A stretch of DNA of 64,000 nucleotides from Watersipora subatra (taxonomy: Eukaryota; Bryozoa; Gymnolaemata; Cheilostomatida; Watersiporidae), in the NCBI RefSeq assembly GCF_963576615.1, contig NC_088714.1:27834558-27898557 (forward strand), given 5' to 3'. Shown piece by piece: positions 996-27,400 of the stretch; within the stretch, counting starts at the first letter, position 1; every line of letters starts with the position of its first letter. Below the pieces are notes generated by a model. It ran no database searches. It saw only the letters and a list, made by a program, of their open reading frames with translations, and was not told the DNA's origin. Both the position numbers and the translations under genes were made by a program.

Positions 996-3900
996 CTGCC
1001 ATAAAAGTACACACCATAAAAACATTACAGGTTTTACGTCTATAATATGTAATAGACCTGATAATAAAATTCAAGACCTCATTAAATTGATAATGACTCA
1101 CCAAGTTATATTAGAGGCCATATTGGGTAATTTGAAGTGAATCGCTTTGAGTTCAGCGTGACATTAAGACACCTAATATGGCCTCTAATATGACCTTGTG
1201 ATTCCTCTATTAATGTCTCGCAAGGTCATAATGAGGCCAAATTAGGTGTCTTTACGTTATCTTCAACCCAATGCAATTCACTTTTAGTGATTAAAGCTAA
1301 AAGGTAGACATAACCATCTTGTTACTTGGTTATGAGACAGAAAGCTTCAACATCTATGTTCTGCGCTCTAGTGGTAAAGTCTATGCAAATAAGATGGAGG
1401 GCATGAGTTTGATACGAATTTGTAATGAGCGCCTCCACGATACTCCAACTTTTTACTACAGTTTTCTCTATCGCACTTCCAGATACCTTATAAAACAGCA
1501 TTTTGCATTGATATGTCTGTATTTCTACCTCCATACAGTCTTTTCAAGTTTTCTACAGGAAGTAAATAAGCAGAAATCTACTTGGTATCAATACTTGGTT
1601 GCATCATCACATAATGTTTGCAACAACTTTTAAAACTAATAGGAATAGACCTATATATAATTAATGGGAGAGGATGTGTTGATGGCCGCCACCAAGTCTT
1701 ATACCAGTTTCCTTTTAACTTAAATCTTGCAAAAAGAAATATGATGTACCAAGAAAACCATTTTAAAATACAAGAACCTTTTTGTATAAACATCCTCGTG
1801 CTGCGATGTTTTAAAAAAGAGTGGCCCAGCCATATACTTAATATACACTCATACTTCGACTTACGAGCTTAATGCGTTCCGAGGCTGAGCTCGTATGTCA
1901 ATTCACTCGCATGTTGGTGCAATTTATTTATATATAGAACAATTAAATATATATTGATTGGTTTCCATACTCTAAAAAATGCAAATAAAACTCTCAAAAC
2001 AAGATATTGTAACAGAAAGAACATGTTGGTTATTGTCCCAACTTACCACATGCTTTCAGAAAGCAACAAATAAAAAATAATGCAAGGAAATGTGATAAAT
2101 TAAAATGTAAAATTAAATACATACAATAGCAGCTAAGGCTAGCATTTGCCAGAGAGGGAGATATAAGTTATCCTTCATTACAACAGTTGACTTTGATAAA
2201 TTTGGATTTTATCAAAGTTTTAAAAGACAAACTTAGAAGCAAATCTAAAAGCAAACTTTCATTTTTAACTTAACGTAATTAAAATTTCTTCGGAGTTCAC
2301 CGTTTGAAGTTTCTCGCTGGTTAGCTAATTTTTCCTTTGTTTCGCTTTCACGACTAGCCTGCCGTTTTAAGATGAACCTATCTAAGGACGTTTGCCTTTG
2401 TCGCCCTTTCAACATGTTGCGATTAGGACGAACACAGGTGTCGTCACAAAGGTTTAATGCACGACCACTAGCCAACTTGTCCGAATGTCTACTTTTTGTA
2501 GTTTTGATAGATAGCACCGGCCTTTTCAAATAGCCAATTGTTTATCTTTTATCCAATGCCTGAGCGATCTCTCCATCAGCGGTCGTGAAGATCGCTGCGC
2601 TGTTTAGAAACTACGGTTAATTCTATTGCGAGCTAAATGCCCTGAATATAATACTTCTGTTTGATAATTGTGGATGTATTTCTGTCATATTGCTGAGCTA
2701 GCTCAATTACGCATACACATTTCGCATATTTTTTCAATAATTTTCTGTTTAATATCAATTGTTATCATTTGCTTTTTCTTTGCATTATTTTTCATTTTAC
2801 TGGCAAACTTTCGGTCTACGCGCAATACTTTTAATTCACATATTCCTGCACTGAAAAGCGCGCACAAAAACACGGTACAAAAGTATAACCTGAGCAGTTG
2901 AAAAATACAGATCGATGCTGTTGTCATAAAACACCTCCGGCATACTTGGCAACTGACTCACGTGCTCGTATCTAAAACATGGCTCGTATGTTAGTGCTAA
3001 AACTTGCTTAAAAGCTGGCTCGTATTACAAGTTTCTCGTACGTTGGAGCACTCGTAAGTTGAAGTATTACTGTATTAGGTAATAAAAAACAATGACAAAT
3101 GTGACAGTGAGAAACACTAAAATTCTCAACACTTAGTTAACATCTGCTGCAGGCATACATAATAAGTCTGGCAGCTTATTGAGCAGACTGAAGCATTGTC
3201 AAAAAGCAGAAATCCATAATTTCACATTGCTATTCTAGGACTGACTCGCTGCTGTCATTGGAACTCATTAAAGGTCTGTTGACTATTGAAAATACCTGAA
3301 TAAGCTTCTTGAAGTTTTTGTACTCATGTTCGTATCTGTTGAGGGGGACAAACTCCGTTTCATCATCGTTTCTCATACGAGAGACTCCTTTGATGCTAAT
3401 GGTGCAGTAGTCACTCTTGTTTATGTGTTCGTGGCTAACCACCTGCAAGAGATGCCAACCATCATGGTGAGTGTTTGGGGCTATAGAATCCCGCTTGAGA
3501 TAGTAGAAAAGAACTACATGATGCTGCGTAATGCATCTAGAGTTGGTATAGATCAGGGCTTCGTGTTGAGGGCGCAGGAATCAATCATAAAGACAGAAAA
3601 TGTATTTGTCGTCGCAACAATCCTGAAAATGATCTGCATATTTCACACCACAAGGAAACATGTTTCAATCAAATAACAGAAGAGGTGGAAAACTGTCAAA
3701 GATCATAAAGTGAGTTGATTTTTTTATATGTTGGTGCTGTGTGAAATCGCTCAAACTTTCTTAGAATCACCTTCCAATAACATATTGATTTCATATATTC
3801 CAAATACATGTATGTTGCTTTTCATAGTTTTAAACCATTTTGCCTCATCCAAAACAAGGTGTGCGAGATTGCCTTTATCAGTCGAAGGGGGTTCAGTGAT

Positions 3901-21400: not shown

Positions 21401-24400
21401 TAAAGATAATGCTATAAGCTGCTACATTTTATGACCGTTACTCCGCTTTTACCAAGTTTAAGGAAGTGCAAAAGGTGACATAGTTTGAGACAAGCTTTTT
21501 TAAAACTAGATCGCTGACACAAAAAAATGTTTGTGTATATTATTTGATCTGACAGTTTATGAGCAATCCATTTTCCTGCAAAATTCCAACACTTTTACCT
21601 ACAAAAAATAAATTCATCATGAAAGTTCTCACACATTTTTTACATTTGTTGCCATCAAACTTTATTTAACATCAATAACATACTGTATCTAATTTTAAGC
21701 TAGTCTTTGATACTGTTGGAAGTTTTACTGGTTTAGACAAGCTGAATATAAGTAATAAAATAGTGAAAATATAACCTGCATTATAAACGATCAAAACCAA
21801 TACAGAAAAAAAAACAATTCATGCAAAGCACATATGATATTTACAATCTTCTCTCTAATAACCTCAAAAAAGGTTGTGTTACCTTTCACACTCATCAACA
21901 TCCTGTGTGCAGTTGGTCCCATTCCAGCCACTGGTACAGGCACATGTATATCCATTTATCCCATCTAAACAGAGTCCATTGACACATGGAGAGCTGTAAC
22001 ATAATATGAAGGGATTAATAGAGTCACCCGCTGAAATTAGCTCTATCAATCACTTAACACCAGAACTTAGCTTTTGATCTTACCTTGAACACTCATCTAT
22101 GTTGGTTTCACAGGTGGAGCCGCTCCAACCATCTGTGCAATTGCAGCTGTAGCTGAGAAAGGTGTTTGTACACTCTCCATAGGCACATGGAGAGCTGTTG
22201 GATATAATAAAGCATTATTTTGATAATTTCATGTTTGGTTACCAGTGTGAAACAATCAATGTCCATAAAACTCAAAATAGACCAAGAAAAATAAATGTAG
22301 ATTAACAATGACATACCTAAAACAAAAACTTCTAATTTGAAGAAAATCAAATTAAACTCAAATAATTCATATTCTGCAGATGCAGATTATTGTATAGATT
22401 GCAATAAAATAGTTTCTATAGATCAACTCTTGGATTATATCAGCATCATTTAAAAAACATACATAAGTAATTATAAGTTTTTCCAGACAATCATAGGTAA
22501 ATCAAGTAACAAGCACAGACTATAGACAATGTGTCAGAAGGCTTTCTGTGTTATTAGAAAATTTAACAAACAAAGACCCTGATAACTCACTTGCTGCAGT
22601 TAACAGTAGGTGAGTTATCAGGACTCAAGCAGGATTACAAACCTTATAACTCACCTGCTACAGTGGTCAATTTTAAACACGGTTATAAACCTTGTTACTC
22701 ACCTGCTACAGTAATCAAGTTGAACAGGGTTCTGACACTCTGTTCCATTATACCTTTCAAGGCATGTACAGTTGTATCCATTTATTTCATCCGTACATGC
22801 TCCTCCATTTTCACATGGTGAACTGAATAAAAGAAGACATGTTTAGAGAATTGACAGTTTTAAATTTAATGAAAAGAAAACTTTTACAGGCACATTCGGT
22901 TGCTATAATTATGTGTGGTGGACAAATTCTAAAAAATTTTTAAAAGCATTTTGTGAAACGGTCCTTCACCTCACTCATTTGATGCATTTCTGGTACTCGT
23001 ACAGGTCTTTCGTAAAGACTCATGAAGAATATTTAGAGTTTATTGCTGTTCAGATGTTGTTATGTTTGTCAGCTGAAACTGATACCCTACAGGATGAAAA
23101 TATCCGATGGATATAAAAATTCGCGATTTCGCGGGCAGACAACTCCGCGAATTATTAAATTCCGTGAATAATTAGTTCTATTTTTAAACACAAGAGAGAA
23201 CAACTACTGCCTCAAATTAAAAATTAGTCGCTAGGCAGAAGTACTTAACATAGCCGAGTTCTAAAGCTGTTTTAAAATTATCGCCGGGGCTTCGAAATAA
23301 CTACATTGCTAATGCATCACGATTCTTTACAAAATTTTTCAAGGTTTTCACAAGTTATGCACAATGGCGTCATCGCAAAAATAGCCGTTAGGCAGAAGTA
23401 CTAAACTTAGCCCGGTTCGAAAAAAATTTTTAAAGCATCGCCGGGGCTTCGAGTTAACCCCATTGCTAATGCATCACACTTCTTTACAGAATTATTCAAT
23501 GCTGTCACATGTCATGCAGAATGGCTTCGCAAAAATCTATATTAGTTTTTTACATTAAAATCAACTGCATCAACTTCTAAAACTGAAGTTGATGACTCTA
23601 GTGATTCTGATCTGGATATCATGGTATGTATTTGATTTTTAGAATCGTTTTTTTCCATAATTACTTAACTGCGTTAGTTCATTATCTTGTTTAAAACCGA
23701 TCGCTTTTATTCGATACTTCAGCTATTGTTTTTGTACTTCTTGTACACTTGTTAATATTTTTCTCTTTTGTGTTTACTGCAGATTAAAAATGAAACAGCA
23801 TCTATTCCTGTCACGAAAACTAGAGACAAATATTCCAACTACACCGATAGTGAACGCCTTACCATTTGCCAACATGCATGTACCTATGGCACAGCATCTA
23901 CTTTGCAAAAATTTCCAAATATTAAAAACGAATCGACTGTACGAACGTGGCTGAAAATCTACAAGGAGAAAGTTGATACATTAAAAAATAAATTCAAGGA
24001 AGAATATGATCCCAAAATCCATGTGGTTCATGTTTATATGACAAGTTTGATGATAAGCGTGGACGCCCTAAGAAATTAGGAAACAAAATGGACAATCTTG
24101 TTATTAAAAAACTTGAACAAATTAGCACAGCTGGTGGCGTGATTAATCGGCGGATTGCTCAGTGCGTGGCAAAAGCAGTTATTAGCAAAGGAAACTCAGG
24201 TCTTCTTAAGGAAAATGGAGGTAGCATTGAGCTGACTGAGGGCTGGGCGAAGTCGCTGTTCAAGAGAATGGGACACACACAAAGGAAGGCCACTACTGGA
24301 AAATTTCAGCTTCCTACGAACTACATAGAGGAAATGTCGCTAACTTTTACGCGTGAGATTTCCCAGCATGTGATGGCAAAAAAACATTCCTTTGTGTTTG

Positions 24401-27400
24401 ATCCTTAATTGGGACCAAACACCACTCAAGTATGTGCCAGTCTCAGATAAAACCATGGCCCCCAAGGGCTCGGCAAAGGTAGCCATTAACGGCCTTAGCG
24501 ACAAAAGAGGGGTTACTGTTGTATTAGCAGTGTCTATGGACGGTACGATGCTTCCCTATCAGGTTATTTACCCAGGTAAAACTGCTAAAAGTTTGCCACA
24601 GCACAAAATGCCTGTAGGCTTTGATTTACAAGCAAACCCTAGCCACTGGGCCAATGAGGAGACAATGATCAAATATGTGGCGAATGTCATTCGGCCATAC
24701 TTAGATGAAACGAGGACTCGACTTGGCAAACCAGATACGCCAGCTCTTCTTTATGACGCTTTTCGAGTACACAATACTAATAATTTCAAAAGCAAACTCA
24801 GCTCCATGAATGTGATCTGCGTGCAGATAAGCCTAGACTTTAAATTGATACTTTCCTAAATTTGTGTATCAGTTTTATAACATAGCCAAACCCTGTTCTT
24901 CGTTTCATTGTTTGCAGGGCATAGTTATATATATATATATAGTACTTTATTGGAAATAATTTCATTTCACAAATAGAAATGTTGTTCAAATTAGGCCATA
25001 TAACATAGTTCAGACCAATCAATATTTAACTGCAATTTGTTTTATAGATTCCGAAGAACATGACTGACATCTTGCAGCCGTTAGACCTCTCAGTCAATAA
25101 ACCGTTTAAAGACTTTATCAAATCACAATTCTCCCAATGGTAAGCATATAAATTTAAAATGAGCCTGACTGCGAAGCCATAAAAAATTGTGTAAACGAAG
25201 ACATTGTAAAGCCTCTGCAAACACTCTTTGCAATGTTGAAGCATTGGATGCAAAAAGAATTTGTTTGGAAAACCTGTTTTGCATCAATTGTAACTGTTTA
25301 TAAAATGGCAGAATGTTTGATCTGAGCATAATTTTTTGATTCACAGGTACACAGAACAAATCATGGAGGTCGGCCATCAGTATGAGAAGGTTGCGTCACT
25401 GATGAAAAACATAACCAAGCTCAGAGAGATGCATGCCAAATGGTTGTGTGAATCATACAGGCACTTTTTATTACCATCGCAGAGGGTGACCTTACGGAAT
25501 GGATTCACCAAGGCAGGGATATTGGAACCATGATTGCATTATATATATTCAGAGATGTGTAGAATGTAGAGATATTTTACATGTATAAATATATATTTTA
25601 CTACCCTAACTAGAGTGTTGGAATAGGTTAATGTTACTTATCTTTTTTCCAGATTGATGTTTTACTCTGGGGTCACGACAGGTCTGTTTCGTGCTGGTGC
25701 TCTCTTAAGGTAAAATGTGTTAAAACCCAGAATTTAACACAAGTTACCTGAAGAGTGCACCAGCACGAAGCAGACCTGTCGTGACCACAGAGTAAAATCA
25801 ATCTGGAAAAAAGATAAGTAACATTAACCTATTCCAACACTCAAGTTAGTTATAACACTCCGCACTTTTCAGAGCGTAGAGTGCTGTTAGCAGTAGGCCT
25901 GACCACTCACTATAATTACATATTTTATACAACATTAGATATATTATATATATATATTTGAAATAAATCCATATATATAGATATTTCTCAAGGATTTTTA
26001 GAGATATTTTTATGTATAAATATATTATAATTAATTACAAACTTGAGTGTACAAATAATGTATTTCAAATACAAATAAAATTTTACAAACAATGGAGTAA
26101 ATAAAAAGTTTTGCCCATATGGTGGTTGTCTCGCAATAAAATTAAACTGATACATTTGCTAAGTAAATACTGGCGTGGAATGGTGCTCTCTGACTAGTTA
26201 TTTTGGTAATAGCAGCGGTATATCGCTGTCACTGTCTTGGGCAGATGTTAAAGGCAATTCTCCCATACTACGTGGCTGGTAAGTCAGTTATCATCAGAAA
26301 TCTCCTCGTGGCTTACTATTGCAACGTTCTGCTGGTTGGCCAAAAGTTTGTGATCGTAAAGGCGTTCTTGTTTCTTTTTTAAAACAGATATATTCTTCTC
26401 GTTAGCAGCTGTGGTCACTTCAATTTCAAGACATCCCTGAATGATTGGTGATCTTCTAGGAATACCATCCACCACCCTTGCAGTCATTGTACCTTCGGAT
26501 ATGATGAAAAAGCTGCTTACTATACTTATTTCACGGGGTAGATGACCAACCGTTGCGCAGTCTGCGTTTATTAGCTTTACTCCCAATGGTTCGTGTAGAT
26601 TATTGGGCTTTTCTAACACTAAAACGAATAACAAAGCGGTAGGGGTGAAAAAATAAATATTGCGTTTTACTAAAGTAAAATTCAATTAATAATTTAGTAA
26701 ATGGTTTTAAAAAAACTCATTACTTACCACAAGTTGTTGGCTTATCAAAGGCCTCCAAAGCGATGAATATTCGTGAAAACCTCTGGACGCAGCAAAAATT
26801 GTTTACCGCAACTTAGCACGATCGCCTCACAGTTGTAAGCTAAATATAAACCGGAACACACGGTGTGCGCATGCGTAAGGATAACTCTATTGCTAGCCGC
26901 AATAGAATTAACTTTTCCTAGAGAGTGGCAGTTGTCAGCCGCGAATAAATTCATCCTCGAATATGCATGAAAAGACAATTTTCGCGAAATATAACTCCGC
27001 GAATGAATTCATCCTGTAGGGTAATACCTCTGAAAATAAGTGGATTAGTTCCAAAAAATTTGCAGAGCTTATACACACACTCTAATTCATTTTCTGTATT
27101 TTTATATCAACGTAATTCAACTTGATGGTTTTTGTGTGAAAAAAACTACCAGTTTAGTATAAAAGAAAAGGCTAAATATTTATCTTCATAGCTGCAAAAA
27201 CTGGAGAATGTTTCAACCACATGAGACAATTCGATATAACGATATTGCTATTGCAGTAGTTAGTAGAATGCACGCCTGCTACTTCAATTTTATCAAGTTT
27301 AGGTAATCTATTTAGTTTAGACAGCAATATTTTTCCAGCTAAAAACTGGAAAGAGAACTTTCAGAGATACTAGTTTTAGACATTGAAATGCTAAACCTTT

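Follow-up and report, generated by a model that had tools for sequence, protein, structure and literature searches.

A degraded pogo-type transposon of Watersipora subatra and its probable HIRAN-like second gene

The stretch of the Watersipora subatra genome analysed here (64,000 nucleotides of contig NC_088714.1, hereafter the window) contains a 3,937-bp copy of a pogo-type DNA transposon at positions 23085–27021, bounded by 14-bp terminal inverted repeats (TIRs) and flanked by TA on both sides. In our judgement this copy, dead and broken in both genes, probably derives from an old transposon in which a DDE transposase was accompanied by a convergent, spliced gene for a HIRAN-like protein of roughly 140 amino acids. 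Comparison of related copies indicates that a HIRAN-like gene regularly accompanies the transposase in this pogo lineage and is no local accident. In some of those copies both genes can still be read, which hints at a transposon tied to DNA replication and repair.

The transposase piece of the window gave 71 matches in the genome, falling into 53 loci, of which the 21 with at least 65% identity make up the window's own lineage, here called family A. A convergent HIRAN-like gene was present at 15 of these 21 loci, at nine among the listed matches and at six (L085, L086, L088, L089, L090 and L060) by direct reading of fetched DNA. The family A locus at C4:60685... is uncertain, since one nearby HIRAN piece shares the strand of the transposase (L051) and a convergent match lies 3.9 kb off, and at the remaining five loci the fetched DNA stops before or about the expected position of the HIRAN exon. 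The HIRAN-like protein itself gave at least 163 matches in the genome, with the best 150 of 3,411 candidates scored.

The same arrangement recurs in a second, deeply diverged family, lineage B, whose transposases are about 39–44% identical to that of the window. Seven of the eight B loci that were fetched (L057, L058, L061, L063, L066, L067 and L068; 41–44% identical to the window piece) carry a convergent HIRAN-like exon in the flank, and for the eighth, L062, the HIRAN match lies outside the fetched stretch. Genome-wide, 21 lineage B transposase loci were listed at a threshold of at least 77% identity to L057, and 20 of them have a convergent match to the lineage B HIRAN sequence (HIRAN-B) within 5 kb; two of the 21, on contig 5, share one such match and may be a single element. 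Conversely, a B transposase lies beside 19 of the 20 HIRAN-B matches listed (best 150 of 222 candidates scored), and 15 of the 20 are free of internal stops. One B element could be completed: it is TA-flanked, starts CCCTAGGACACTTA, has imperfect TIRs about 4.7 kb apart and holds both genes, its HIRAN exon 1 starting MAMARFEFTCGLRRFYVYREFWTP and being followed by a putative GT–AG intron. A second lineage B end with TA, together with its own HIRAN exon 1, was found at L066.

That families A and B, despite their deep divergence, share the position and orientation of the HIRAN-like gene speaks against its late insertion into the element. A preliminary description of this DNA had allowed for a later arrival of the gene with a nested element, which is not borne out by lineage B, where place, orientation and intron all match. 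Although a probably foreign palindrome sits between the two genes, as might follow if an unrelated element bearing HIRAN had inserted there, no such palindrome was found in lineage B, and on the evidence of this single genome we regard the explanation as very improbable.

The palindrome is near-perfect and 245 bp long (25606–25849, with arms at 25606–25724 and 25733–25849), so that the central hairpin reported for the element is real, but it is probably foreign to the pogo/HIRAN system. It occurs in 21 compared sequences, all of them family A elements or overlapping pieces thereof, and was not found in L088, in the fetched lineage B DNA or in the sampled short copies described below. Its 119-bp arm has at least 58 matches in the genome (best 40 of 641 candidates scored); it forms three inverted pairs 1.2–4 kb apart without a listed family A transposase, and tight palindromes elsewhere. 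Because the arm recurs elsewhere in the genome, the hairpin is most likely a nested insertion, probably a palindromic derivative of another element that landed in the A1 ancestor within family A. A role of the hairpin as a regulatory part of the element was considered and rejected, since the arms occur outside the element. In its inverted pairs, the arm resembles the TIRs of another element family.

Between families A and B, HIRAN exon 2 shows a nonsynonymous divergence (pN) of 0.44–0.48 and a synonymous divergence (pS) of 0.80–0.82, which is saturated, and the transposase a pN of 0.42 and a pS of 0.78–0.80, values that suggest comparable long-term constraint on the two genes. At shorter range, the family A transposase pair L086–L088 has an omega of 0.44, reached by none of 2,000 neutral simulations and hence constrained, and the lineage B transposase pair L057–L067 has an omega of 0.57 (P = 0.03). 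For the lineage B HIRAN gene, ten pairs among five of the seven fetched copies gave omega values of about 0.38–0.89, three of them with P ≤ 0.015 and the best with P = 0.0025 by neutral simulation; the ten pairs share sequences and are hence not independent. These tests omit L058 (99.5% like L057), L063 (frameshifted) and L062 (HIRAN not fetched).

Short copies of the element were sampled at 16 TIR-pair loci on contig 1 (L069–L084), where the elements measure 561–2,476 bp. HIRAN exon 1 is present in 15 of the 16, the tail of exon 2 in 14 and the core in one; at E ≤ 1e-3, the transposase main exon is matched by four copies, over 21–24 residues and never further, and transposase exon 3 by none. 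The short copies are MITE-like (miniature inverted-repeat transposable element) hitchhikers in which the HIRAN core is not kept. That they actively keep HIRAN was rejected, with 15 of 16 lacking the core and omega near 1 in family A. This retention of exon 1 and the exon 2 tail around a lost core, like the neutral and broken HIRAN sequences of family A, would suit a history in which an ancestral pogo element took host HIRAN exons by chance and has carried them unused. An unused passenger should, however, have decayed over the time separating A from B, whereas the two families share gene order and orientation across saturated synonymous sites, with constraint on the protein like that on the transposase; moreover, most B matches are stop-free and some B pairs show significant constraint. 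We therefore consider chance capture improbable, and prefer the reading of a co-inherited second gene.

As to the identity of that gene, the minus-strand open reading frame (ORF) at 26284–26685 of the window has HIRAN as its only Pfam match, in keeping with the likeness first proposed for it, but the match to PF08797 is weak (E = 0.033, 14.4 bits) and falls short of the curated cut-off of 24.7 bits. Spliced readings matched Pfam HIRAN at E = 0.0066 for the window and at 2.7e-4, 2.8e-4 and 2.5e-4 for three other copies. HIRAN was matched at E ≤ 0.1 (best 1.9e-4) by 19 of the 21 exon-2 sequences picked for their open frames; five also match the 3H domain weakly (best E = 0.013). When three profiles were compared with the PDB, HLTF HIRAN chains were the only matches at E ≤ 0.1 (best 0.008, 0.024 and 0.006), and one family A sequence on its own found the same chains at E = 0.047. 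A search of the complete genome with the PF08797 profile came back empty, which the splitting of the domain by an intron probably explains. All 21 chosen exon-2 sequences share an invariant GHL core and an invariant Asn pair that aligns to N90–N91 of HLTF, within its PNN; according to the available parts of PMC4666394 and PMC11237066, this is the pair mutated to impair HLTF HIRAN function.

Alternatively, the convergent product or an antisense transcript might act as a regulator that restrains the transposase, and the HIRAN fold would then have been redeployed to bind the element ends. This regulatory alternative would fit the convergent layout and the short spacing between the edges of the transposase and HIRAN matches (about 0.8 kb at most B loci and 1.35–1.5 kb at most A loci), as well as the multiplication of short copies that retain the HIRAN side, but an antisense role would have no need of the conserved Asn pair and GHL core, and the core is missing from most of the short copies sampled; we rate it as distinctly improbable.

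The window copy of the HIRAN-like gene is a pseudogene. Exon 2, with the NN and GHLPREI core, lies at 26284–26619 on the minus strand (ORF list, Pfam and copy comparison), and the remains of exon 1, with a changed start codon and a frameshift, at 26728–26819 on the same strand (copy comparison). The phase-matched two-exon gene of the preliminary description is not confirmed in that form, as the N-terminal HIRAN strand, at 26802–26728, is in a different frame from the ORF at 26745–27008. A frameshift common to the window's subfamily separates this first strand from the old start; the listed A1 copies that can be compared share it just past the HIRAN-like start, and the window additionally lacks the ATG. 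In L056 (A2), the HIRAN-like start is still open.

On the plus strand, the description of a frameshifted DDE transposase was confirmed, with a match of the window piece to Pfam DDE_1 above cut-off (E = 1.4e-5) and a frame broken at several places; L086 (E = 1.6e-6) and lineage B L057 (E = 1.4e-17) also match above cut-off. Exon 1, at 23521–23623, was located by a search for a PCNA-interacting protein (PIP) box, its ends being set by eye. The main exon, at 23783–24859 with an approximate 3′ end, carries most of the DDE domain, here in three frames. Exon 3, at 25048–25139, was placed by eye from its likeness to lineage B and contains the third catalytic D (QPLDLSVNK), and the last exon, at 25347–25533, comes from the ORF list with its start set by eye. 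The third D of family A, located by eye only, thus lies beyond an intron; in the lineage B transposase, 35 residues separate the second and third D, inside the DD29-56D spacing of pogo. A scan for N-terminal DNA-binding domains gave HTH_Tnp_Tc5 for lineage B (E = 0.051) and HTH_28 for the window (E = 0.14), both below cut-off. A genome search with DDE_1 listed 150 places (best 150 of 718 candidates scored), and these at least 150 places point to many further pogo-type lineages. Two scans of viral contigs, one using a lineage B transposase as query and one the HIRAN alignment, yielded no relative.

A PIP-box motif, defined as Qxx[I/L/M]xxF[F/Y] at the transposase start, is present at 13 of the 21 family A loci and at five of the eight fetched lineage B loci (MAKQIKITSFF). 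In the window it reads QKSILVFY, at 23530–23553 on the plus strand within exon 1, and is followed by a frameshift. It was not found in lineage B L061, whose 5′ part is replaced: at positions 174–779 (element orientation, minus strand), where other B copies have their 5′ part, L061 holds an open frame of 202 amino acids, which we take to resemble the end of a non-LTR (long terminal repeat) reverse transcriptase. In the DNA fetched for the family A element L087, a minus-strand stretch near position 1766 reads like a lineage B transposase start (MAKQIKIISFFGKA).

The outline of the element as a TIR-bounded, TA-flanked unit stands. Both TIRs are exact copies of CCCTACAGGATGAA, at 23085–23098 on the plus strand and 27008–27021 on the minus strand, and the TA target-site duplications can be read from the sequence at 23083–23084 and 27022–27023. 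These ends are the sole two matches in the window at up to two mismatches, against a chance expectation of 0.23; two matches were reached in 2 of 100 shuffles. The search for further such ends, proposed in the preliminary description, was productive: in the genome (783.7 Mb, 239 contigs) exact copies of the 14-mer CCCTACAGGATGAA number 996 in forward and 1010 in reverse orientation, and those of a control read backwards 0 and 0. TA and short TIRs accompany the window element and all 20 TIR-pair elements L069–L088 (with one and two TIR mismatches in L087). Just inside the left end, a subterminal direct duplication at 23220–23528 on the plus strand, detected by repeat comparison, consists of two 152-bp copies that are 80% alike; similar DNA occurs in 67 of 96 compared sequences (window included), short copies among them, and the tandem may be a transposase binding region.

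Several observations weigh against the reading of a functional two-gene system. In family A, 14 comparisons of the HIRAN sequence gave omega values of 0.69–1.68 with a lowest P of 0.16, consistent with neutrality. L085 and L086, two TA-flanked copies of 3.9 kb located apart from each other, whose transposase main exon is open over 367 amino acids, spread with the HIRAN region broken at identical places, and the HIRAN protein is therefore dispensable in cis in family A. The expectation that intact copies keep both genes thus fails for these two, whereas stop-free HIRAN matches prevail in lineage B; the two-component element first proposed recurs in both lineages, but its family A HIRAN copy is neutral and broken. 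Even in lineage B, five of the 20 HIRAN-B matches carry a stop, seven of the ten HIRAN pairs are not significant, and the partial transposase pair L057–L061 has a non-significant omega of 0.96. Between L057 and L067, divergence is higher in the HIRAN exon (0.137) than in the intron of that gene (0.063) and greatest over the core, where exon 2 (element orientation 2900–3139) is 2–3 times more diverged than the adjacent intron and transposase. An exon diverging faster than its flanks suggests exchange between elements, and the history of the lineage B HIRAN gene may be mosaic.

Further points on the same side concern detection and scope. None of the four spliced readings, at 16.7–21.3 bits, reaches the Pfam cut-off, and single-copy scores overall span 14.4–21.3 bits, all below it; we therefore call the protein HIRAN-like and do not assign it to PF08797. 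One spliced lineage B sequence compared alone with the PDB found no match. The PIP motif departs from the pattern in L066 and L067 (B) and in L055 and L059 (A), and it was not found in six other family A loci within the DNA fetched. All lineage comparisons come from one genome, and the HIRAN lists were made with A and B queries (best 150 of 3,411 and of 222 candidates), so that a very diverged HIRAN could be missed. Within these limits, among 60 loci with less than 39% identity to B, four belong to family A (one with HIRAN), and the 57 other pogo-type loci, namely the remaining 56 and one non-A locus at 40%, have no HIRAN among the matches listed. One outgroup element of 3.4 kb, L095, lacks a PIP-box start, and HIRAN was not matched there below E = 0.28.

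Taken together, we consider it probable that this pogo element is a two-gene system in which transposition is coupled to replication or to 3′-end handling; the estimate applies to a function at DNA ends or forks in the broad sense. HIRAN proteins are known for gripping loose DNA ends, and the family binds 3′ DNA ends. As a tentative mechanism, which as a whole we hold to be possible but less than probable, the HIRAN-like protein would bind 3′-OH ends, whether on the excised transposon, in the donor gap or at the replication fork, the transposase would be recruited to PCNA through the PIP box, and the two together would time transposition to replication. They would also either protect the 3′ ends of the post-cleavage complex against HLTF and similar host remodellers or guide the repair of the donor site. 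According to the available part of PMC11237066, an isolated HIRAN domain prevented HLTF from removing Cas9 at cut ends, which makes an end-shield role plausible. The most specific version, a replication-aware two-protein pogo system in which a stand-alone HIRAN-like 3′-end cap and a PCNA-docked transposase keep the ends protected from HLTF-type remodellers and tie jumping to the replication fork, is rather unlikely. In family A, the helper would have become dispensable in cis and then rotted; lineage B might supply HIRAN function in trans, or HIRAN may have been outgrown in family A. A co-inherited HIRAN-like gene would offer a testable handle on why pogo transposases touch the replication machinery, and the element may also supply animal-like genomes with stand-alone HIRAN-like genes.

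No publication pairing the words HIRAN and pogo was found in the literature searched, which left subscription journals and Repbase outside, and titles and abstract openings on HIRAN with transposon or transposase, the full texts being mostly out of scope, describe no such element. The word HIRAN is absent from the main text of PMC7386202 and PMC7325037. As far as the available portions of the sources extend, the window element resembles the pogo superfamily in its DDE_1 match, TA duplication, short TIRs and a length inside the range of 1.2–5.2 kb (PMC7386202), in the 35-residue spacing of lineage B, DD35D being given for Passer and Fot (PMC7386202), and in its PIP box, a PCNA-binding motif of unclear purpose reported for POGO, Tigger and Lemi1 (PMC5371812). 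It differs from known pogo elements in that window-type elements carry a separate, convergent HIRAN-like gene. The product of that gene resembles the HLTF HIRAN domain, its only PDB relative at E ≤ 0.1, in the Asn pair and the VGHL..E core, but would be a small transposon-encoded protein that stands alone, lacking RING and SNF2 and scoring below the Pfam cut-off. A parallel in layout, in the excerpted text of PMC7325037, is with the ciliate Tec/TBE elements, which are likewise of Tc1/mariner type and encode multiple genes, including one on the opposite strand; their extra gene, however, encodes a site-specific recombinase rather than a HIRAN-like protein.

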